This document shows, in pieces, positions 5,125 through 39,754 of a stretch of DNA of 39,754 bases. The stretch is from Burkholderiaceae bacterium. GTDB taxonomy: Bacteria > Pseudomonadota > Gammaproteobacteria > Burkholderiales > Burkholderiaceae_E. The DNA lies in the NCBI GenBank assembly GCA_021463505.1, contig JAJTYR010000032.1:1-39754 (forward strand), read 5' to 3'. How positions within the stretch are numbered: the stretch's first letter is position 1; each line of letters begins with the position of its first letter. Both the position numbers and the translations under genes were made by a program. The notes under the pieces are model-generated. The model was not told where the DNA came from, ran no database searches, and worked only from the letters and a program-made list of their open reading frames with translations.

Positions 5125-6579
5125 CTAGAACGGGTAGTGCCGCGGCGTGGTCTGCACCGTGATCCAGCGCAGCTCGGTGAACTCGTGGATGCCGGCCTTG
5201 CCGCCGAAGCGGCCGATGCCGCTGCCCTTGACGCCGCCGAACGGCATCTGCGCCTCGTCGTGGACCGTCGGTCCGTTCACGTGGCAGATGCCCGACTCGA
5301 TGCGCCGCGCGACGTTCATCGCGCGCGCGACGTCGCGGCCGAACACCGACGCACTCAGCCCGTACTCGTTGTCGTTGGCGCAGGCGACGGCCTCCTCGAC
5401 GCCGTTCACGCGCACGATGCACTTCACCGGCGCGAACGTCTCCTCGTGGTAGATGCGCATCTCGCGCGTGACGCCGTCGAGCACCGTCGCCGGCATCAGC
5501 GTGTCGGTGGCCTTGCCGCCGCACAGCAGCTTCGCGCCCCTGACGAGCGCGTCGTCGATCAGCGCGTTGCAGTGCTCGACCGTGCCCATGCCGATCACCG
5601 ACCCGAGCACCACCGGTTCGGGCCTGCGCGGGTCGCCCAGCGGCAGCTTGCCGGCCTTGCCGACGAACTTCGCGACGAAGTCGTCGGCGACCTTCCGGTC
5701 GACGACGAGCCGCTCGGTACTCATGCAGATCTGGCCCGAGTTGGCGAAGCAGGCGAAGGCCGCCGCGTTCACCGCCGCGTCGATGTCCGCGTCGTCGAGC
5801 ACGACCATCGGCGCCTTGCCGCCGAGCTCGAGCAGCACCGGCTTGAGGTACTTCGCGCAGGTCATCGCGATGATCCTGCCGACCTTCGTGCTGCCGGTGA
5901 AGTTGACGCGCCGCACCGCCGGGTGCGCGACCATCGCCTCGACCACCGTGCCGGCGTCGGCCGGCGCGTTGGTGAGGTAGTTGACCACGCCTGCCGGAAA
6001 ACCCGCATCCTGCAACGACTCGATGATCAGCTGGTGCGTGCGCGGGCAGTTCTCGCTGCCCTTGAGCACCACCGTGTTGCCGCAGGCAAGCGGGGTGGCG
6101 ATCGCGCGCACGCCGAGGATGATCGGCGCGTTCCACGGCGCGATGCCCAGCACGACGCCGGCCGGCTGGCGCACGCCCATCGCGAGCGACCCCGGCACGT
6201 CGGAGGGAATCACCTCGCCGGCGACCTGCGTCGTGAGCGCCGCCGCCTCGCGCAGCATGCCGGCGGCCAGGTGCGCATTGAAGCCGACCCACATCGCGGT
6301 CGCACCGGTCTCGGCGGCCATCGCCTCGACGAACTGCGGCGTCTTCGCCTCCAGCGCGTCGGCCGCCTTCGACAGCAGCGCGCGGCGCTCGCCCGGGCCG
6401 GTCTGGCTCCACGACCCGAACGCCTCGGCAGCCGCGTCGACCGCGGACACCGCGTCGGCCGCGCTGGCTGCCGGCGCGCGCGTCGCCACGCTGCCGTCCA
6501 GCGGGTTGCGCCGCTCGAAGGTCGCACCCTTCTCGGCGCTCACGGCGAGGCCGTTGATCAGCATGGACAGGTCGGACAT
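5125..6579 (-). CDS. Aromatic-type aldehyde dehydrogenase (vanillin/salicylaldehyde dehydrogenase-like)
   Basis: A 484-residue NAD(P)-dependent aldehyde dehydrogenase. The nucleophile is the Cys in SGQICMSTER, the general base is the Glu in LLELGGKAP, and the cofactor loop FTGSTKVGR is present. The segment WVGFNAHLAAGMLREAAAL is characteristic of the vanillin/salicylaldehyde dehydrogenase branch. A GGAG six bases before the ATG at 6579 (GGAGAAAGACATG) supports independent initiation. The reading frame is nevertheless open back through the preceding livF-like gene, with no stop, so a LivF-dehydrogenase fusion is also possible. The exact aldehyde is not determined; an aromatic aldehyde fits both subfamily and operon. 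Confidence 0.88.
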   Translation of the reverse strand: MSDLSMLINGLAVSAEKGATFERRNPLDGSVATRAPAASAADAVSAVDAAAEAFGSWSQTGPGERRALLSKAADALEAKTPQFVEAMAAETGATAMWVGFNAHLAAGMLREAAALTTQVAGEVIPSDVPGSLAMGVRQPAGVVLGIAPWNAPIILGVRAIATPLACGNTVVLKGSENCPRTHQLIIESLQDAGFPAGVVNYLTNAPADAGTVVEAMVAHPAVRRVNFTGSTKVGRIIAMTCAKYLKPVLLELGGKAPMVVLDDADIDAAVNAAAFACFANSGQICMSTERLVVDRKVADDFVAKFVGKAGKLPLGDPRRPEPVVLGSVIGMGTVEHCNALIDDALVRGAKLLCGGKATDTLMPATVLDGVTREMRIYHEETFAPVKCIVRVNGVEEAVACANDNEYGLSASVFGRDVARAMNVARRIESGICHVNGPTVHDEAQMPFGGVKGSGIGRFGGKAGIHEFTELRWITVQTTPRHYPF

Positions 6580-7398: not shown

Positions 7399-8151
<753 letters not shown>

Positions 8152-8159
<8 letters not shown>

Positions 8160-9135
8160 CGCGAGCCTCGCTCGCGCGGGCGCGCCGCGCCTGCCGCCAG
8201 GCGGCGAACTCGCGGCGCCAGCCGGAGAAGGTGGATGGACGCAGCGACGCCAGGCCGTCGGGCAGGTAGAGCACCGACAGGATCAGCAGCAGGCCGAGCG
8301 CCATCATGTAGACCTGCGGCAACTGCAGGCGCAGCGCCTCCGCGAGCAGGCTGAACACGACGGCGGCGATCAGCGGCCCCCACAGCGTGGCCGCGCCGCC
8401 GATCAGCGCAATCAGCACGGTCTGGAAGCCGATGAACGGGTTGAACACCGTCATCGGGTCGATGTAGGTCCAGCGCACGCTCATCGCGGCGCCGGTGGCG
8501 CCGGCGAACGCGGCGGTGATCGCGAAGCCGATCACCTTGACCCGGCGCGTGTTCACGCCCAGCGTCTGCGCGCGCTGCTCGTCGCCGCCGATACCGGCCA
8601 GCGCGAGCCCGAGCCGGCTGCTGCGCACGACGATCGCGGTGGCCACGGCGAGCACCGCGAGCGCGAGCATCGTCAGGTAGACGGTGCCCGGCTCGGGCAC
8701 GACGACGAGCACGCGGCCGACCGTGCCCGCGTACTCCTTCTCGGCATAGGTGATCGCCAGGCGGATCAGTTCGGTCATGCCGAAGGTGAGCACCGCGAAG
8801 TAGGTGCCGCGCAGGTGCAGCACCGCGCTGCCCATCGCCGCCGCCACCAGCACGGCGATCGCCGCGCCGAGCGCGATCGCGCCCGCCCACGGCAGCTGGT
8901 CCAGCGTAAGCGCGCCCACGTAGGCGCCGACACCGAAGAACGCCGAAGTGGCCAGCGACATGTAGCGGGTCGGGCCGCAGAACAGCGCCCAGCTCGACGA
9001 CAGCGCCACGTACATCAGGCAACTGAGCGCCATCGACACCACGAAGTCGCTGGACCAGGCGGGCAGCGTGGCCGCCCCGGCGGCCAGCGCGAGCAGGATC
9101 GGCACGTCACGGCCCGCAATGCGCCCGAGACTCAT
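8152..9135 (-). CDS. livM: Liv-type ABC transporter permease LivM
   Basis: A 327-residue inner-membrane permease with about eight to ten hydrophobic segments. The LivM family pattern (LRGTYFAVLTFGMTELIRL, then an IGGDEQRAQTLGVNTRRVK cytoplasmic loop followed by AAFAGATGA) contacts the ATPases. The ATG at 9135 was preferred over the one nine codons upstream because it gives the ATGA overlap with livH. The C-terminus has a basic, Arg/Ala-rich tail of about 25 residues. Confidence 0.92.
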
Positions 9136-10007
9136 CGCTTGAACAGCCCGTTGGGCTTCCACAGCAGCACCGCGATGAAGATGCCGTACGACAGCAGCGA
9201 CTTCAGCGACGGACTGGTGAAGTGCATCCCCAGCGCCTCGATGACGCCGAGCGCCAGGCCCGCGAGCAGGCTTCCGGTCATGCTGCCGAAGCCACCGAGC
9301 GTGATGACGATCAGCGCGGTGACGGTGTAGGGCTCGCCGATCGACGGCGAGACCGCGTAGGCCATCGACAGCAGGCTGCCTGCGAGCCCTGCCAGCCCCA
9401 GGCCGATGCCGAACATCATCGGGTGCAGCCGCTCGGTGTCGATGCCCACCAGTTGCGCGCCCGTGGGCGACTGCATCAGCGCGCGCACCCCCTTGCCCAG
9501 CAGCGTGCGCCGCAGCAGCACGATCAGCGCGATGCTCGCGGCCAGTGCCACCGCGAGAAGCACCAGCTTGTTGCCGGCGAAGCGCGTACCCGCGACCGCG
9601 ACCGGATCGGTCAGGTAGTCATAGCCGCGCAGTTCGCCGCCCCATACCAGCGACGCGAAGTTCTGCACCAGGAACATCAGGCCGAAGGCCACCATCAGCC
9701 CGCGCGCCTCGAACACGTCGATGTCGGGGGAGGTCGCGGCCAACCGCCTGATGACCAGCCGGTGAATGACGAGCCCCAGCGCCGTCATGATCGCGAATGC
9801 GACCGGCGCCATCAGCAGCGGCGAGATCCCGAGCTGCGTGTACGCGAACCAGGTCGCGAACCCACCCAGCATCAGGAACTCGCCGTGGGCGATGTTCAGC
9901 ACGCGCATCAGCCCGTACTGCAGGTTCAGCCCGAGCGCGATCAGCGCATACACGCCGCCGGTGATCAGGCCGGAGGCGATCAGTTCGAGCCATGCCTGCA
10001 GCGACAT
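9132..10007 (-). CDS. livH: Liv-type ABC transporter permease LivH
   Basis: A 291-residue permease partner of LivM. The hydrophobic pattern and the motifs GGVYALIALGLNLQYGLMRV (17-36) and NIAHGEFLMLGGF are typical LivH, and AGLAGSLLSMAYAV matches the conserved loop near residue 210. It lies 30 bases after the substrate-binding protein gene and overlaps livM by four bases. Confidence 0.93.
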   Translation of the reverse strand: MSLQAWLELIASGLITGGVYALIALGLNLQYGLMRVLNIAHGEFLMLGGFATWFAYTQLGISPLLMAPVAFAIMTALGLVIHRLVIRRLAATSPDIDVFEARGLMVAFGLMFLVQNFASLVWGGELRGYDYLTDPVAVAGTRFAGNKLVLLAVALAASIALIVLLRRTLLGKGVRALMQSPTGAQLVGIDTERLHPMMFGIGLGLAGLAGSLLSMAYAVSPSIGEPYTVTALIVITLGGFGSMTGSLLAGLALGVIEALGMHFTSPSLKSLLSYGIFIAVLLWKPNGLFKR

Positions 10008-10037
10008 CGGGCGGGCGGGCCGTGCGCCCCGGCCTGC

Positions 10038-11240
10038 CTACCAGGCAGGCTTGGGCATCACCAGTTGCGCGGTGGCAACGCTGCGCGGCCAGACCACCTC
10101 GAACTCGCCCTTCTGCCACTGCGCGACGGTGCCGGGCGTCGAAACGTTCTCGCTGCCCTCGAAGCGGATTGGCCCGATGATCGTCTTGTGCTCGGTGCGC
10201 GCGACGTAGTCGCGGATCGCCTTGCGCTCGAGGCCGACCTTCGCGACCGCCTGTGCCAGGATTTCCAGGCCGGCCCAGCAATGGCCGCTGGCCCAGCGAT
10301 CGGGCTCCTTGCCGCCGAACTTCGCGGTGTGCGCATCGAAATAGGCCTTCGCTGCGGGACTGGTCTTCGCGTTCCACGAACCCATGCCCGTCACCCCCTC
10401 GGCACCGGCGCCGATCACGTTGCGATACAACTGGTACGCAGTGCCGACCGATGCGTAGAAGATCTTCGGATTGAAGCCGATCTCCTTCGCCTGCTTGCTG
10501 GCGAGAATGGTGTCGGGCGGATAGGTGATGCCGATGAACGCATCCGGGTTCTGGTCCTTGATGCCACGCAGCACCGGAGAGAGATCCTTCACGCCCAGCG
10601 GGTAGCCCTTGCGCTCGACCACCTGGATGCCGGTCTTCTTCAGTGCGCCGTTGATCGCAGCGAAGTTCTCCAGGCCGAACAGGTCATCCATGTACAGGAT
10701 GGCGATCGTCTTCACGCCGCTGGCGACCAGCATGTCGACCAGCGCGCCCATCATCCGGTCGGGCTGCTGCAACAGCGAAAAGAAGTGCGGCAGGCGCATG
10801 TCGATCAGCTTGCGCGACAGCGCCGTGGGCGCAAGCATCGGATAGCCGAAGCGGTTGGCCAGCGGCGCCAGCGCGAAGTTCGCGTTGGATCCCCACGGCG
10901 GCAGGATCAGATCGACCTTGTCGCTGCCCATCAGCTTCTCGTAGGTGCGGATGCAGGTCTCGATCTCGCTGCGATCGTCGTAGCCGATCAGCTCGATCCT
11001 GCGTCGCACGCCTTTCACGTCGAGGCCGCCAGCCGCGTTCTGCTGTTCGGCCCACATCAGGAAATTCGGCTCCTGGCTCACTTGCGCGCCGCCGGCCCAG
11101 GGGCCGGTGCGTGCAATCGCGTAGCCGATGCGCACCGGCGCCGACTGCGCCCGTACCACTGCAGGCATGGCAAGCGCAGCCGCGCCGGCGCCGAGGGCCT
11201 GCACGGTATTGCGGCGGGTGACGGACTCGGGAGTGCTCAT
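10038..11240 (-). CDS. Periplasmic substrate-binding protein of the Liv-type importer
   Basis: A 400-residue type I periplasmic binding protein (Peripla_BP_6 family) that delivers ligand to LivHM. The N-terminus has a twin-arginine-like signal (VTRRNTVQALGAGAAALAMP) with likely cleavage after VVRAQ. The mature start VRIGYAIARTGPWAGG is typical of the family. The ATG at 11240 was chosen because GAAGGAG precedes it at the right spacing; the longer frame adds only 18 non-conserved residues. It heads the operon. The ligand cannot be read from the sequence; the downstream aldehyde dehydrogenase suggests an aromatic or related acid rather than leucine. Confidence 0.9.
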   Translation of the reverse strand: MSTPESVTRRNTVQALGAGAAALAMPAVVRAQSAPVRIGYAIARTGPWAGGAQVSQEPNFLMWAEQQNAAGGLDVKGVRRRIELIGYDDRSEIETCIRTYEKLMGSDKVDLILPPWGSNANFALAPLANRFGYPMLAPTALSRKLIDMRLPHFFSLLQQPDRMMGALVDMLVASGVKTIAILYMDDLFGLENFAAINGALKKTGIQVVERKGYPLGVKDLSPVLRGIKDQNPDAFIGITYPPDTILASKQAKEIGFNPKIFYASVGTAYQLYRNVIGAGAEGVTGMGSWNAKTSPAAKAYFDAHTAKFGGKEPDRWASGHCWAGLEILAQAVAKVGLERKAIRDYVARTEHKTIIGPIRFEGSENVSTPGTVAQWQKGEFEVVWPRSVATAQLVMPKPAW

Positions 11241-11473: not shown

Positions 11474-12442
11474 ATGCCCAGTTTCACGCCGACGATGAGC
11501 ACCGACTTCGTGTCGCCAGGCGAGCGCGTGGGGTACTGGTCGGAATGGATCGACCGGCTGTTCTGCGGCCTGCAATCGGACGTCTACGGCGACACGGCGT
11601 TCGACGGCCACATGGCCACCGAGCAGGCCGGCGACGTCGTGCTCACGCGACTGGAGGCCGATCGCCACCGAGTGCTGAAGAGCGATCGCGAGGTGCGCGG
11701 TGGCGACGTCGGTTACCTGAAGATCGTCGCGCCGTATCGCGGCACCGCGGGCGTCGAGCAGCAGGGCCGGCAGGCCTGGGTGTCGCCGGGCGAATGGTGC
11801 ATCTACGACACCACCGACCGCTACCGGGTGGCCAACCCGGTGCACGTCGAGCACCTGATCGTGATGGTGCCCAGGGCGCCGCTGGTGGAGCGCGGCCTGC
11901 CGCTGGACAAGCTGATGGCGCAGCGGCTGGGCGCGCACGGCGGCATCTCGCGACTGGCACTGCAGGCGATGCGCGGCGCCTGGCAGGAACTCCCTTCGAT
12001 CACGCCGTCGGCCGCGCGCGGCGTCGGCGAATCGATCGTGCAGCTGGTGCAACTGTCACTGCTCGAGCTGGCCGGACGCGACAGTGCGCCGACGCAACGT
12101 GAGGCGCTGGGCGAACGGATCAAGCAGCTGGTGGCCCGGCGCCTGGGCGACGCGCGGCTCTCGGTCGACACGATCGCGGTCGAACTCAATTGCAGCCGGC
12201 GCCAGCTGTACAATGCGTTCAGCGACGAACCTGACGGAGTGGCCGGCTACGTGCTGGCGCAGCGGCTCGAGGCCTGCCGGCGCGACTTCGACGATCGCTG
12301 CCAGGACGCAATCTCGATCACCGACATCGCGCTGCGCCGCGGCTTCAACCACCCGGCACACTTCAGCCGCGCGTTCAAGGCGCGCTTCGGCGTCACGCCG
12401 AGCGAGTGGCGACTGCGCGCGACACTCGGCCTGCAGGCGTGA
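11474..12442 (+). CDS. AraC-family transcriptional regulator
   Basis: A 322-residue regulator. The N-terminal half is of the AraC-binding-like type found in FeaR-like activators (SPGEWCIYDTTDRYRV near residue 100). It is followed by a C-terminal double helix-turn-helix (about 225-315) with SVDTIAVELNCSRRQLYNAF and ITDIALRRGFNHPAHFSRAF, the latter the hallmark second HTH. The ATG at 11474 has a GGAGAG site ahead; a longer frame from 11360 adds a Pro/Arg-rich stretch that looks non-coding. It diverges from the Liv-type operon with candidate operator repeats between them, so it probably controls that operon. Its last 50 bases overlap the 3' end of the convergent AtuA-family gene. Confidence 0.9.
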   Translation: MPSFTPTMSTDFVSPGERVGYWSEWIDRLFCGLQSDVYGDTAFDGHMATEQAGDVVLTRLEADRHRVLKSDREVRGGDVGYLKIVAPYRGTAGVEQQGRQAWVSPGEWCIYDTTDRYRVANPVHVEHLIVMVPRAPLVERGLPLDKLMAQRLGAHGGISRLALQAMRGAWQELPSITPSAARGVGESIVQLVQLSLLELAGRDSAPTQREALGERIKQLVARRLGDARLSVDTIAVELNCSRRQLYNAFSDEPDGVAGYVLAQRLEACRRDFDDRCQDAISITDIALRRGFNHPAHFSRAFKARFGVTPSEWRLRATLGLQA

Positions 12443-27028: not shown

Positions 27029-27709
27029 ATGCCGCTGCAGCTCCAGTGCGCGATCGAACTCGACCACCTGGTGGTGGCCTGCGCCACCCTCGTGCAGGGC
27101 GACGCGTGGCTGCGCGACCTGGCCGGCGTGCCTTCCGCGCCCGGCGGCAGCCATCCGGGCTGGGGGACGCACAATCGATTGCTACGCCTCGACGCGCGCA
27201 CTTACCTCGAATTGATCGCCCCGGACCCGACCCAGCCCGAGCCGGCGCTGCCGCGCCCCTTCGGACTGGATGACCCGGAGCTGCGCCGTCGCCTCGCGCA
27301 ACGGCCGAGGCTCGTGCACTGCGTGTGCCGGGTATCACGCCTGGACGAGGCGACGGCCCGCGAGCACGGCCACGATCCCGGGGCGATCGTGTCGATGACG
27401 CGCGGCATGCTGTCCTGGCGAATCACGATGCCGGGCGATGCGCGCAGTGCGGCGCACCGCTGGAGCCGCGCGTGCCGGCTGCAGCCGACGCTGATCGAGT
27501 GGTCGGGTGGCGAGCAGCCTGAGCGGCATCCGCTCGACGCGCTGGCACCCTCCGGCGTGACGTTGCTGCGACTGCACATGCAGGCGCCGGCGGAATCGGC
27601 CCTTTCCGCGGCGCTGGGCGCCGATTCGCGCGTCATCATCGCGCACGCTTCGTCGCCCGCGCTCGGCGCCGAGTTGTCCACGCCGCAGGGCTGGCGGCTG
27701 ATCGACTGA
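27029..27709 (+). CDS. VOC / glyoxalase-like domain protein
   Basis: A 226-residue protein with a glyoxalase-like (vicinal oxygen chelate) domain of the Glyoxalase_3 type. The first module starts at [19 protein letters not shown] (9-27), with a putative metal ligand in the H of LDH. It continues with [20 protein letters not shown]. No enzyme activity can be assigned. The ATG at 27029 was chosen by homology start and normal length. It diverges from argS and converges on an acyl-CoA ligase gene, both ending in the same codons (ATC GAC TGA). Confidence 0.8.
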
Positions 27710-35854: not shown

Positions 35855-36184
35855 ATGAAACAGCCTGACCCTCTCGGGCTCGAGATCCTCGAAGCCTGCG
35901 CAGCGGGCAAGTTGAGGTCGGTCGCCACCAAAGCCGAACTCGATCGCCTGCGCGACGCAGCCCGCGCTACGGTCGTCAAGGATCGCCGGGTCAACATCCG
36001 CCTGACTGCCGGTGACCTTCGGGACATCAAGGTCGAAGCGATGGAAGAAGGCATGCCCTGTCAGACCCTGAGCGCGAGCGCCCTTCACCAGTACGTCACC
36101 GGGCGGCTCGAAGAGCGCAGGAACGATCCGGTCGGCCGCACTGCTGCTCCCAGGCGTCACTCGACGCGCACGGGCGGAAGCTGA
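35855..36184 (+). CDS. CopG/RHH-type antitoxin, no partner toxin seen
   Basis: A 109-residue protein like the type II antitoxins of the CopG/ribbon-helix-helix group. The core VVKDRRVNIRLTAGDL (40-55) is followed by the conserved EEGMPCQTLSASALHQYVTG (64-83), where related proteins read EEG-PYQTL-SS-LHKYV-G. An N-terminal ILEACAAGKLRSVATKAEL segment is also typical. GGAGAAG precedes the ATG. No intact toxin is found on either side. The Cys at the normal Tyr position and the divergent ASALHQ stretch hint at relaxed constraint. Confidence 0.75.
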   Translation: MKQPDPLGLEILEACAAGKLRSVATKAELDRLRDAARATVVKDRRVNIRLTAGDLRDIKVEAMEEGMPCQTLSASALHQYVTGRLEERRNDPVGRTAAPRRHSTRTGGS

Positions 36185-36238: not shown

Positions 36239-36889
36239 TCATTCCTTCGCCGGATAGCCCACCGTCTGCGACAGCAGCACCTGCTGGTCGTGGGCCAGGC
36301 CGAGCGCTTCGGCGATCGCCTCGCGATCGATCCACGCGCGGATCACCGCCGCCAGCCCGTTACCGGCGGCGAACAGATAGACGTTCTGGGCGATCGCGCC
36401 GGCCGCGGCCGACGCGTAGCTCTCGCGCTGCGCCGCCGGCACCATCGGCATGCGTCGGTGGTCGGCCACGTAGACCAGATCGAGCGGCGCCTCGTCGACG
36501 AAATCCTGGTAGCCGGTGATGCGCCGCAGATCGGCCTGCGCGACCAGGCGCAGCGCATGCTCCCCGGCATCGTACAGGCAGGCGCCGGCGGGCAGTGCGG
36601 CGTAGACGTCGACCTCCTGCCCGTTCAGCGCCGAAGGTGCCGTGCGTCCGCCATCCGGGCGGTTCCTGCCGTACGCGGCCCACAGCAGGTTCGACAGCAA
36701 CGGCAGTGGCAACGCGTCACGCGCGAATTTGCGCGACGAGCGGCGCAACGCGAGCGCGTCCATCAGCGGCATGCCGCCGCTCACCTCGGGCGCCGGCAGC
36801 ACGATCGTCGCGGCCGCATCGCCGGTTGCCGGGCGCGGACGCAGGCGACCCATCATGCCCAGCGCCAGTTTGGTGAGGGTGTTGCTCAT
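36239..36889 (-). CDS. Nitroreductase-family protein (SagB/ThcOx-like)
   Basis: A 216-residue FMN-dependent nitroreductase-fold protein. ALRRSSRKFARDALPLPLLS (47-66) is the FMN-phosphate-binding R-x-S-x-R-x-F pattern, LLWAAYGRNRPDGGRTAPSA fits the SagB/ThcOx-like group, and the C-terminal AIAEALGLAHDQQVLLSQTVG segment matches the family ending. Its natural electron acceptor is unknown. It starts three bases after the EamA gene stop, with AGAGGTAG as ribosome site, so the two are one operon. Confidence 0.88.
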   Translation of the reverse strand: MSNTLTKLALGMMGRLRPRPATGDAAATIVLPAPEVSGGMPLMDALALRRSSRKFARDALPLPLLSNLLWAAYGRNRPDGGRTAPSALNGQEVDVYAALPAGACLYDAGEHALRLVAQADLRRITGYQDFVDEAPLDLVYVADHRRMPMVPAAQRESYASAAAGAIAQNVYLFAAGNGLAAVIRAWIDREAIAEALGLAHDQQVLLSQTVGYPAKE

Positions 36890-36892
36890 CGG

Positions 36893-37327
36893 CTACCTCT
36901 TCAGGGCCAGGACCAGCACGCCGCCGGCCACCATCGCAATGCCGAGCCATTCGCGCCCGGTCGGCCGCTCGTCGAGAAACGCAAACGCGAAGATCGCCAC
37001 CAGGACCACGCTGAACTTGTCCACCGGCGCGACCTTCGAAGCATCGCCGATCTGCAATGCGCGGAAATAGCACACCCACGAGGCGCCGGTGGCCAGGCCG
37101 GACAGGCCGAGGAAGAGCCACGTCCTGGCCGGGAGCCCGAACGGGTTGCTCCACTTTCCGGCAAGCCAGATGAACGCCGCGAGCACGAACAGGATGACGA
37201 TCGTGCGAACGAGCGTCGCGAGATCGGAATCGACGCCCTGGATGCCGACCTTGGCGAAGATCGCGGTCAGCGCGGCGAAGACCGCCGACAGCGCTGCCCA
37301 GACGAACCAGTGGGTCGAAGTGGCCAT
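36893..37327 (-). CDS. Small EamA-family transporter
   Basis: A 144-residue single-domain member of the drug/metabolite (EamA) superfamily, with five hydrophobic helices and the conserved end FSVVLVAIFAFAFLDERPTG and REWLGIAMVAGGVLVLALKR. Half-size members work as dimers. Substrate is unknown. There is no clear ribosome site before the ATG at 37327. The 50 bases upstream lead straight into a truncated brnA remnant, suggesting that a deletion placed this operon there. Confidence 0.85.
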   Translation of the reverse strand: MATSTHWFVWAALSAVFAALTAIFAKVGIQGVDSDLATLVRTIVILFVLAAFIWLAGKWSNPFGLPARTWLFLGLSGLATGASWVCYFRALQIGDASKVAPVDKFSVVLVAIFAFAFLDERPTGREWLGIAMVAGGVLVLALKR

Positions 37328-37770: not shown

Positions 37771-38250
37771 CTACGTCGTACGTGTGCCGCAAGACGCAGT
37801 CCTGGCAGACTGGCGTGCGCCTGAACGCGCCCCCGCGCGCCGAAGCAGGCACGGCATCGCAGCGAAGACGACGAGCATCGCGAGATAGACCAGACCGGAA
37901 ACCGGATCCCGCGCAGCAAGGTAGCTCGCCACGCTGCGTCCGGCGAGCGTCACGGCGAGCAGCAGTTCGGCCGCAACGAGCAGCGCCAGCGCAGCAACGC
38001 CGACGGCCACCCACTGCCATCGGGTGCGCACGCCGGCGAACCTGCGCACGACGAATCGCGCCGCCAGGGTCACCACCACGAACATGAAGGGCATCTCGGC
38101 CAGTTCGGCGTAGCGCTCGCCGATGACGGGCGCGACGAGCGCCACACGGACGAGGCCAAAGACGAACCCGATGCCGAAAACGATGCCGAAGTAGGCGCCG
38201 GCGGCCACGAGGATCCGGCCTGGTACGGGCCCGGAAGGTTTGGCGGCCAT
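37771..38250 (-). CDS. Unknown membrane protein with about four helices
   Basis: A 159-residue hydrophobic protein that I do not recognise. Four predicted membrane helices lie at about 12-35, 47-65, 78-100 and 118-140; a basic loop (RRFAGVRTRWQW) separates the second and third. The last 20 residues are Arg/Ser/Thr-rich and may be a degraded or replaced end. The ATG at 38250 was chosen because the helix follows soon after. It is 36 bases downstream of a LysE-family gene, in the same direction, and 13 bases upstream of the brnT remnant. It may be co-transcribed with the cassette genes. Confidence 0.6.
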   Translation of the reverse strand: MAAKPSGPVPGRILVAAGAYFGIVFGIGFVFGLVRVALVAPVIGERYAELAEMPFMFVVVTLAARFVVRRFAGVRTRWQWVAVGVAALALLVAAELLLAVTLAGRSVASYLAARDPVSGLVYLAMLVVFAAMPCLLRRAGARSGARQSARTASCGTRTT

Positions 38251-38286: not shown

Positions 38287-38913
38287 TCACGGTCGGCGCT
38301 CGAACGCCAGCTTGACGCCGAGCCCTGCCAGTACAGCCCCGCTCGTACGGAACACCCAGACCAGAAACCCGGGATGAGCCCGAAGCCATACAGAGAGAAC
38401 GCCCGCGGCGAGCCCAACCGGCCCCTTGACCAGGAACGTGAGTCCAGCAAAAGCGAGCCCGAGGCCGAACACAGACAGGGTAGGGTGCGTAGCGCCGGGC
38501 AGTACGAACTGCGGCAGGAACGCGAAGTGGAAAACAGCGATCTTTGGGTTGGAGATGTTGGACAGCGCTCCGTCAGCGAAAAGCCGCAGCAGCGACCTGG
38601 GTGCGCCCGTAGAGACGGCGAGTTCCGAGTGGCGAGTGCGCAGCAGTTGCACCCCGATGTAAACCAGATAAGCAGCGCCCACGAGCTTGAAGCCAAGGAA
38701 CAGCCACTCCGATACTCGCAACAGGGCGCCCAGGCCGAGTGTGGCCAGAGCGGTGTGGCCGACCAGGCCAACGCTAACCCCTGCGGCTGTGACGACCCCG
38801 GCAGCCGAGCCCTGGGAGATGGAGCGCGACATGACAAGCACCATGTCCTGTCCGGGTGTTGCGATCAGAAGCAGCGACGCCGCGATGAACACCGACCACG
38901 TTACCTCGACCAT
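38287..38913 (-). CDS. LysE/RhtB-family exporter (integron-associated)
   Basis: A 208-residue amino-acid exporter of the LysE/RhtB family with six hydrophobic helices. The family start WSVFIAASLLLIATPGQDMV (6-25) has PGQ where most have PGP, and ADGALSNISNPKIAVFHFAF is the conserved mid-region. AAGGAG lies eight bases before the ATG. The start is only 19 bases beyond the GTTAGCC core of an attC-like site (38933-39010), so it sits as a cassette gene would. No attC follows its stop, so it may be the end of the array or a cassette that lost its site. A/T-ending codons are more frequent than in the backbone genes. Confidence 0.9.
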   Translation of the reverse strand: MVEVTWSVFIAASLLLIATPGQDMVLVMSRSISQGSAAGVVTAAGVSVGLVGHTALATLGLGALLRVSEWLFLGFKLVGAAYLVYIGVQLLRTRHSELAVSTGAPRSLLRLFADGALSNISNPKIAVFHFAFLPQFVLPGATHPTLSVFGLGLAFAGLTFLVKGPVGLAAGVLSVWLRAHPGFLVWVFRTSGAVLAGLGVKLAFERRP

Positions 38914-38932: not shown

Positions 38933-39010
38933 GGCTAACGCTCGAGTTCACCCGCTGGCCGCAGACGCCGAAGGCGGCTGTGGCGCGTCGGGTGCAACGA
39001 AGGGTTGGCC
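38933..39010 (-). other. attC-like integron recombination site between two LysE-family genes
   Basis: Read on the minus strand, the site opens with GGCCAAC, ends with the core GTTAGCC, and is an imperfect palindrome. The inner arms GTTGCACCCG and CGGGTGAAC pair if one G (between GTT and CACCCG) is left unpaired, as in attC folding. The centre carries a further hairpin with a TTCG turn (cgccttcggcg). It starts one base after the stop of the upstream LysE gene, typical for cassettes. The core differs from GTTRRRY at one position. Confidence 0.75.
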
Positions 39011-39657
39011 GTCACCGTTCATTCGCCGCCAACCGGGCCCCAAGTGCAGCAAATGCAGCAGTAAATCCATAGCGCAGCGCATTCTGCACGCGCGCCGATT
39101 CGATGACGAAACGGCGAAAGGCGTGTGCGAGGAACCCGTAGGCGACGAACACCACGAAGGTCATTGCCATGAAGACTGCGCTCAAGACGAGCAGGTGGGC
39201 GAACGCTTGGCTTGACGCGGAATCGACGAACTGCGGCAAGAACGCCAGGAAGAAAATTGTCAGCTTGGGATTGAGGATGTTCAGCAGGAACGCCTTCACC
39301 ACCAGCCCGGTGGCCAATACCTTGGCCACGCTGCTATCGACCGAGAAGGCCGAGCGGTCACGCCAAGTGGCAACGGCGAGGTAGAAGAGATAGGCAACAC
39401 CGGCGTACTTGAGAACCTGAAATGCCAATGCGCTGGTGTGCATGACCGCGGCCAAGCCGAGGGCGGTGGCCAGAAGGTGAGGAACGATTCCTGCCGTGCA
39501 GCCAATGGCGGCAAAGATGCTCGCGCGGCGACCAGCCGTAAGGCCGGTAGACACTGTGTAGACGACGCCCGTGCCTGGAACAAGGACGACAACGAGCGAG
39601 GTAATGAGGAATTCGAGGGTGATCATGGCAATGACGGGTGGGGTTGGGGATGACTAA
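38939..39657 (-). mobile_element. Integron gene cassette carrying a LysE-family exporter
   Basis: The 719-base unit between the cleavage points (after the G of GTTAGTC and of GTTAGCC) of the two attC-like sites. It has the standard cassette plan: 31 bases of leader, one gene, and an attC that begins one base after the stop. The orientation (genes leftward, attC on the minus strand) implies that any integrase gene and attI lie beyond the right edge of the window. Confidence 0.7.
39012..39626 (-). CDS. LysE/RhtB-family exporter (integron cassette gene)
   Basis: A 204-residue LysE/RhtB-type exporter with six hydrophobic helices. The N-terminus FLITSLVVVLVPGTGVVYTV (6-25) carries PGTG in place of the usual PGP, and LVVKAFLLNILNPKLTIFFL is the conserved helix region. 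Bacterial relatives export amino acids or homoserine lactones; the substrate here is unknown. No ribosome site is evident; the ATG is 31 bases from the attC core, as is common for cassette genes driven by an upstream Pc promoter. Composition is visibly richer in A and T than the chromosomal genes. It is not a close copy of the neighbouring exporter. Confidence 0.9.
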   Translation of the reverse strand: MITLEFLITSLVVVLVPGTGVVYTVSTGLTAGRRASIFAAIGCTAGIVPHLLATALGLAAVMHTSALAFQVLKYAGVAYLFYLAVATWRDRSAFSVDSSVAKVLATGLVVKAFLLNILNPKLTIFFLAFLPQFVDSASSQAFAHLLVLSAVFMAMTFVVFVAYGFLAHAFRRFVIESARVQNALRYGFTAAFAALGARLAANER

Positions 39658-39723
39658 CGTTCGACATGAGCGGCCGCCGCAGGCCGCAGGCCGGAAGCGG
39701 TCCGCTCGATGGAGGGGTTAGGC
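39652..39723 (-). other. attC-like integron recombination site upstream of the LysE cassette
   Basis: Minus strand: opens GCCTAAC, closes GTTAGTC, with inner arms GAGCGGACC and GGCCGCTC that pair when one A is left unpaired, the extrahelical base expected in attC. CTCATGTCGAACGTTAG is a sequence frequently met in attC sites of environmental cassettes. The central part contains the repeated ggcctgc. It terminates the preceding cassette, of which only about 31 bases (39724-39754) are in the window. Confidence 0.85.
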
Positions 39724-39754
39724 GTCGCCGTCACAGTGGAGGCTTGCGTTCGCG

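Follow-up and report, generated by a model that had tools for sequence, protein, structure and literature searches.

Arrays of at least two attC sites with their cassettes, with no intI beside them, are known as CALINs. According to the available part of PMC12444791, those of Xanthomonas lie at conserved places away from intI, and intI pseudogenes are described as common in the accessible part of PMC2426708. The available text of PMC9892861 describes a Shewanella prophage that carries an attI-headed CALIN beside an integron; among the sources in partial text, this was the sole precedent that we found for an attI-headed array without intI. Three origins of CALINs have been proposed by Cury et al., namely loss of intI, off-target insertion and rearrangement (as summarised in the part of PMC8618304 that is available). 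Insertion at off-target attG sites is the main rival account of CALIN formation; in the accessible text it appears as a reference-list entry in PMC11023631 and as a sentence in PMC12444791. For LysE cassettes we found no description in the literature, and one may exist. The match in the available text of PMC9668308 was to the word 'lysed', and PMC12772301, which in its accessible part deals with sulfonamide resistance, was unrelated.

The stretch of DNA that we analysed (hereafter the window) is the entire contig C47 (39,754 bases, 70% G+C) of a Burkholderiales MAG of 3.58 Mb in 120 contigs. Rfam, used at its gathering score, gave no match in the window, and we therefore modelled attC afresh. 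The resulting covariance model (R1) was built from six attC sites on contigs C59 and C31 of the same genome only, with no window sequence in the training set; its alignment was arm-only, with the pairing of the R and L boxes given, and replaced a whole-site alignment that was overly gapped. A weak attC guess between the GNAT and HicA genes of C31 was excluded before R1 was built and later gave no R1 match. R1 found two sites in the window, both out of sample: attC B (39652-39723, minus strand; 45.1 bits, E = 6e-9), which belongs to the upstream cassette, and attC A (38933-39010, minus strand; 35.9 bits, E = 1.2e-6), which belongs to the cassette of an exporter gene, LysE2. The remaining window matches, among those listed, scored 15.0 bits (at 27505) and 10.1 bits (at 12011). 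In the whole genome, nine sites were found at E ≤1.1e-4 (three on C59, three on C31, two on C47 and one on C36), six of them being the training sites, and the sole listed match outside attC arrays reached 16.5 bits (150 of the 3316 first-look candidates were scored). Both window sites are real, and they lie where the original prediction had placed them, on either side of a LysE gene. The unpaired extra base of the inner arms, which had also been predicted, was seen both by direct reading and in the R1 alignment.

Folding of attC A gave -26.3 kcal/mol (z -2.98) for the cassette bottom strand and -16.9 kcal/mol (z 0.20) for the top strand; the values for attC B were -19.6 kcal/mol (z -2.19) and -16.0 kcal/mol (z -1.38), respectively. 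Two sites of C31 were folded for comparison: one favoured the bottom strand (z -3.51 versus -2.30), and the other was without such a preference (z -4.59 for the bottom and -5.25 for the top strand). Over 82 aligned sites, 91.9% of the cells were paired, versus 77.5% after shuffling, and covariation was 0.365 versus 0.115, a count that is biased toward R1 because the alignment was fitted to it. When R1 was applied to 74 loci around IntI relatives, 84 of the 87 matches at E ≤1 were on the strand opposite intI, as expected for the orientation of arrays.

The gene between the two sites, LysE2 (39012-39626, minus strand; 204 aa), is a true integron gene cassette, with one gene flanked by two attC sites. 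LysE1 (38287-38913, minus strand; 208 aa) starts 20 bases behind attC A and is the terminal gene of the array, without an attC of its own; left of 38287 R1 found none in the window, save the 15.0- and 10.1-bit matches. Both products are exporters of the LysE/RhtB family with a full-length LysE-type translocator domain (PF01810; 106.7 bits over positions 2-191 of 193 for LysE2 and 98.3 bits over positions 2-192 for LysE1), in agreement with the LysE-family cargo that had been predicted; with either protein, no NCBIfam model passed its own threshold. Their substrates are presumably amino acids or derivatives of these. The 5' end of the LysE2 cassette, GTTAGTC, is inexactly complementary to the R'' box, GGCCAAC. 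The window ends within a further cassette, truncated by the end of the contig, whose end (39724-39754, minus strand) precedes the R'' box of attC B. The original prediction had proposed tandem exporter cassettes, with a second LysE gene after the second attC site. This holds for LysE2; LysE1 does follow attC A, but it lies outside the interval that had been given and, having no attC after it, is an end gene rather than a cassette.

Beyond LysE1 the window is chromosomal. The border gene (37771-38250, minus strand; 159 aa, without Pfam family) has an orthologue (73% aa identity) at the matching place in QEVL (G009/G101) which, like JAOSJU (G005/G102), is a Burkholderiales MAG of the same genus as the host. 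It is followed by two flank markers, an EamA-family transporter gene (36893-37327, minus strand; PF00892), found at the same locus in QEVL, JAOSJU, G006 and G014, and a nitroreductase-family gene (36239-36889, minus strand; PF00881), also at the same locus in relatives. Next to these, a small ORF without Pfam family (35855-36184, plus strand) occupies a spot that is variable among relatives. This place may hold an old cassette, because a minus-strand frame that overlaps the ORF resembles (53% over 57 residues) the first stretch behind attI in the JAOSJU array.

The single intI above the curated cut-off in the host assembly is on C59 (27044-27988, minus strand); behind it, an attI, a HigBA cassette and other cassettes, with three attC sites, extend to the contig end. 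C31 reads, from its start, attC, LysE, attC, GNAT, HicA, attC, an addiction-module gene and then chromosome. A second attI (53424-53537; 53.9 bits, out of sample, with the attI profile R2 described below) heads an array on contig C36, which ends with the gene of an Mrr-type restriction endonuclease, an attC (55346-55412) and a transposase gene. The first cassette of C36 starts with GTTAGGT at the attI junction, and the R'' box of its attC, ACCTAAC, is the exact complement. No intact intI stands beside this attI: tblastn with IntI gave no match in C36:51000-55600.

We infer that the right end of the window joins C36 and not C59, C59 and C31 forming one integron and C36 and C47 another array, because of which flanks are neighbours in QEVL and JAOSJU. 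On contig C32 of QEVL, sequence like that at window position 38205 (L159:9359) is followed, after about 1.5 kb, by sequence like C36:53031-46338. On the 3.7-Mb contig of JAOSJU, attC sites lie between attI (2243.6 kb) and a C31-like flank (2207.1-2210.8 kb), and the EamA/nitroreductase block (2530.4-2531.5 kb) is about 287 kb from the attI locus. G006 carries, on one contig, the flank, attI, attC sites (28.4 and 20.0 bits), EamA and nitroreductase. The join of C36 to C47 is thus based on synteny, the two contigs being separated by an assembly gap, with IS or other repeats at their ends. Across this gap, the putative C36-C47 platform comprises the two attC sites of the window and one on C36, with no intI adjoining. 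The original prediction placed the integrase, if there is one, to the right, and otherwise took the array for a group of attC sites without an integrase. The array's head does lie to the right, but by synteny it is the C36 attI, without a working integrase. We therefore prefer the second option, since C59 carries the only intI that passes the cut-off and about 287 kb separate the two loci in JAOSJU.

Two scraps upstream of orphan attI sites resemble intI: one of 49 bp on C36 (82% identity, intI codons about 55-71) and one of 27 bp in G006 (96%, codons about 196-204), which are in collinear order and on the correct strand. A DNA profile of intI matched them with E values of 9e-4 (C36) and 2e-4 (G006), the best value in 200 two-base-block shuffles being 0.34; in a second profile run the E values were 0.0038 and 0.00093, and none of 360 shuffles gave E ≤1. 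Each scrap is weak alone, and we take them to be probable remnants of intI. Decay of intI is plain elsewhere in the genus. At the main locus of G006 (C12, L199), only the first 31 and the last 18 residues of intI are left, with attI and two strong attC sites kept, and an intI stretch of about 147 residues (46% identity) is left on C20 of G002.

To find attI sites, we used R2, a 119-position profile made from six intI-linked attI sites. The five intI-bearing sites met in the genus survey (C59 of the host, G015, G005, G009:C22 and G004:C111) are training sites, and only the remaining genus matches therefore count as out of sample; besides C36, these include G006:C19 (51.2 bits), G004:C319 (43.4 bits) and a half site in QEVL (35.5 bits). 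R2 matched 10 of the 18 genus genomes (E ≤0.01) and none of 56 genomes from elsewhere in the family (E ≤0.001, with stricter filters). Seventeen attI sites were found at E ≤0.001. An intact intI lies upstream of five, which are training sites; for the other 12, the 1.5 kb upstream contains no intact intI, although for G002:C26 only 227 bases of this stretch were available. Within 1.5 kb downstream of attI, nine of the 17 loci had attC matches above 20 bits (14 in all), every one in the direction of attI. An attI at the C36-type flank is present in five genomes, namely the host, G006, G004, G009 (the half site) and G002, and R2 found none at this flank in JAOSJU. The cassettes at this attI differ among the host, G006 and G004. 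The attI sites of C36 and C59 are about 77% alike over 86 bp. Four congeners (G003, G006, G012 and G013) have attI and attC with no intI above the cut-off, and their platforms therefore could not now be served in trans. G002 has four attI matches (L201, L205, L211 and L212), none with an attC match within 1.5 kb, and the one intI in it that passes the cut-off is broken (one TGA, with the second piece in another frame).

A cassette shared between the two kinds of platform was found in G004. A HigBA cassette begins there at the G|TT of the orphan attI and is 96.2% identical over 737 bp to the first cassette of C59, the match stopping within two bases of the end of attC. Across the crossover, G004 and C59 are 65% identical over about 100 bp to the left and 96% over 700 bp to the right. 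A cassette was thus shared between an intI-type and an orphan platform after the species split, because its 96% identity stands against a background of 80.3% for intI (948 bp aligned), 80.7% for the nitroreductase gene and 83 to 88% for the C36-type flank. The only intI of G004 above the cut-off was found elsewhere in this genome (83% complete). The G004 locus is rearranged, since its attI is on the opposite side of the nitroreductase gene. The shared cassette suggests that leftover platforms can stay in use.

The host has four PF01810 genes, LysE2, LysE1 and two on C31 (108-764, between two attC sites, and 5834-6469), three of which are in or at attC arrays. Among 17 congeners the best match to LysE2 was 36% identical; its nearest relatives (74, 70 and 68%) belong to three further genera of the same family, and attC was found near none of these three homologues. 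A LysE1 homologue lies on the same contig as the LysE2 homologue in G026, about 17 kb away, and on another contig in G021. In the genomes examined, the two LysE genes thus do not form a fixed pair devoid of attC, an arrangement that would have spoken against the original prediction. LysE1 was also considered as a constant chromosomal neighbour of the locus. Stretches of 15-20 kb around eight LysE1 homologues contained attC sites in two cases (L166 and L179), with LysE1 beyond the last attC detected, and none in the other six. In G004 (C55, L046/L166), an 82% identical LysE1 homologue is likewise the last gene of an array, beyond an attC of 32.9 bits and an apparently decayed attC, judged by eye. 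An attC match was found at one of 38 loci of LysE homologues taken with 1.5-kb flanks. The border gene of the window was sought as a partner of LysE1 among the ORFs of 21 relatives' loci, and matched only in QEVL, where LysE1 is absent. A LysE HMM was also run on the ORFs of 88 loci with an array or an attI; those next to IntI relatives (L070-L138) had no LysE gene except one, L077, where a long ORF (7596-10442) scored 182.6 bits.

In a plasmid collection, the best match to LysE2 (75.6% aa and 73.6% nt identity) was on the Aeromonas plasmid pKPC-1ac6 (NZ_CP026227.1, L242 5302-6640), where aac(6')-Ib4 and an attC (35.1 bits with R1) precede it in a class 1 integron. The same DNA is present over 510 bases in pKPC-b21f (NZ_CP026123.1, L243), up to the end of the record. 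Megablast of the pKPC-1ac6 gene against E. coli genomes found it in none.

We consider it probable that the right edge of the window is the distal array end of a second chromosomal integron platform that lost intI and kept attI, because C36 has an attI and a cassette with its attC, and of intI only weak scraps in collinear order. Hairpins are readily found in DNA of 70% G+C, and the attC matches could be chance hairpins. This is extremely improbable, since the two sites, with 45.1 and 35.9 bits out of sample, stand far apart from the next values in the window (15.0) and in the genome (16.5), and spacing and strand are correct around LysE2. CALINs have also been proposed to arise by off-target insertion (PMC8618304, in its available part), and the cassettes could have entered attG-like places where no integron ever stood. 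We hold this for quite improbable: the array is headed by an attI homologue of full length and by intI scraps, and four congeners have the same attI at this flank, one of them as a half site. It is also unlikely, although somewhat less so, that the window is the distal end of the intI-bearing integron, with C59 joined to C47 and the C31 array belonging to C36. Contig orientation fits either pairing, as C59 and C36 both leave their contigs toward the array and C31 and C47 both receive it. However, the window-like and C36-like flanks are neighbours in QEVL and enclose one attI with its array in G006, and in JAOSJU a single array lies between the C59-type attI and the C31-like flank, with the window-like flank about 287 kb away.

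A further question is whether the platform is still used. A single explanation for the genus would be that its integrons are dispersed attI platforms, most of them without integrase, which an intact IntI, where one remains, still loads in trans; G004 would then show a recent insertion of a whole cassette at an orphan attI, and the window array would be such a platform. This is a tentative proposal, which we put at somewhat less than an even chance. The platform could equally be an inert fossil in which intI and attI decayed together, so that nothing moves there in the host, a reading that we also place a little short of even. The latter agrees with the loss of intI, with the four congeners that have attI and no intI above the cut-off, and with the interruption of the array by a transposase gene. 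Against it, the C36 attI retains its GTT junction with a cassette of matching ends, a recently shared cassette is found at the orthologous attI of G004, and the host genome itself has an intact IntI.

With intI lost and the attI-headed array remaining, the order of the second platform would be, on C36, chromosomal flank, intI scraps, attI, the Mrr-type endonuclease cassette, attC and the transposase gene, and, after the assembly gap, in the window, attC, LysE2, attC, LysE1 and chromosome. LysE2 would have arrived as a mobile cassette encoding a predicted exporter of amino acids or derivatives. We infer that the IntI of C59 may recombine the C36-C47 array in trans, its substrates being attI in double-stranded form and the bottom strand of attC in folded form. 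Of the origins proposed for CALINs, a diverged attI with intI scraps at a conserved flank points here to loss of intI. Together with the shared cassette, this makes it testable whether several attI sites of a chromosome are served by a single integrase. LysE2 also links an environmental LysE cassette to a relative already carried by the class 1 integron of a KPC plasmid.

As compared with known systems, the window array is most likely a CALIN that has kept its attI. It shares with other CALINs the traits given above, but differs in that an attI homologue heads it and that the intI scraps and the conserved flank indicate its origin. A sedentary chromosomal integron, with intI, attI and an attC array, is likewise represented in the host by C59 with C31; the C36-C47 platform differs from it by having no intact intI. 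The class 1 integron of pKPC-1ac6 resembles the window in its LysE-family cargo behind an attC. Unlike the window array, it is a mobile class 1 platform with intI1, and no attC match lies behind its LysE gene. The closest likeness is to the Shewanella prophage, whose CALIN, in the available text of PMC9892861, is also attI-headed and without intI, with a complete integron in the same genome. As far as that text allows the comparison, the host differs in that its two loci are chromosomal and far apart, with attI sites about 77% alike, and in that the orphan site is at one flank in several species. CALINs, one of them attI-headed, are thus already known, and the array of this host is a well-documented new case.
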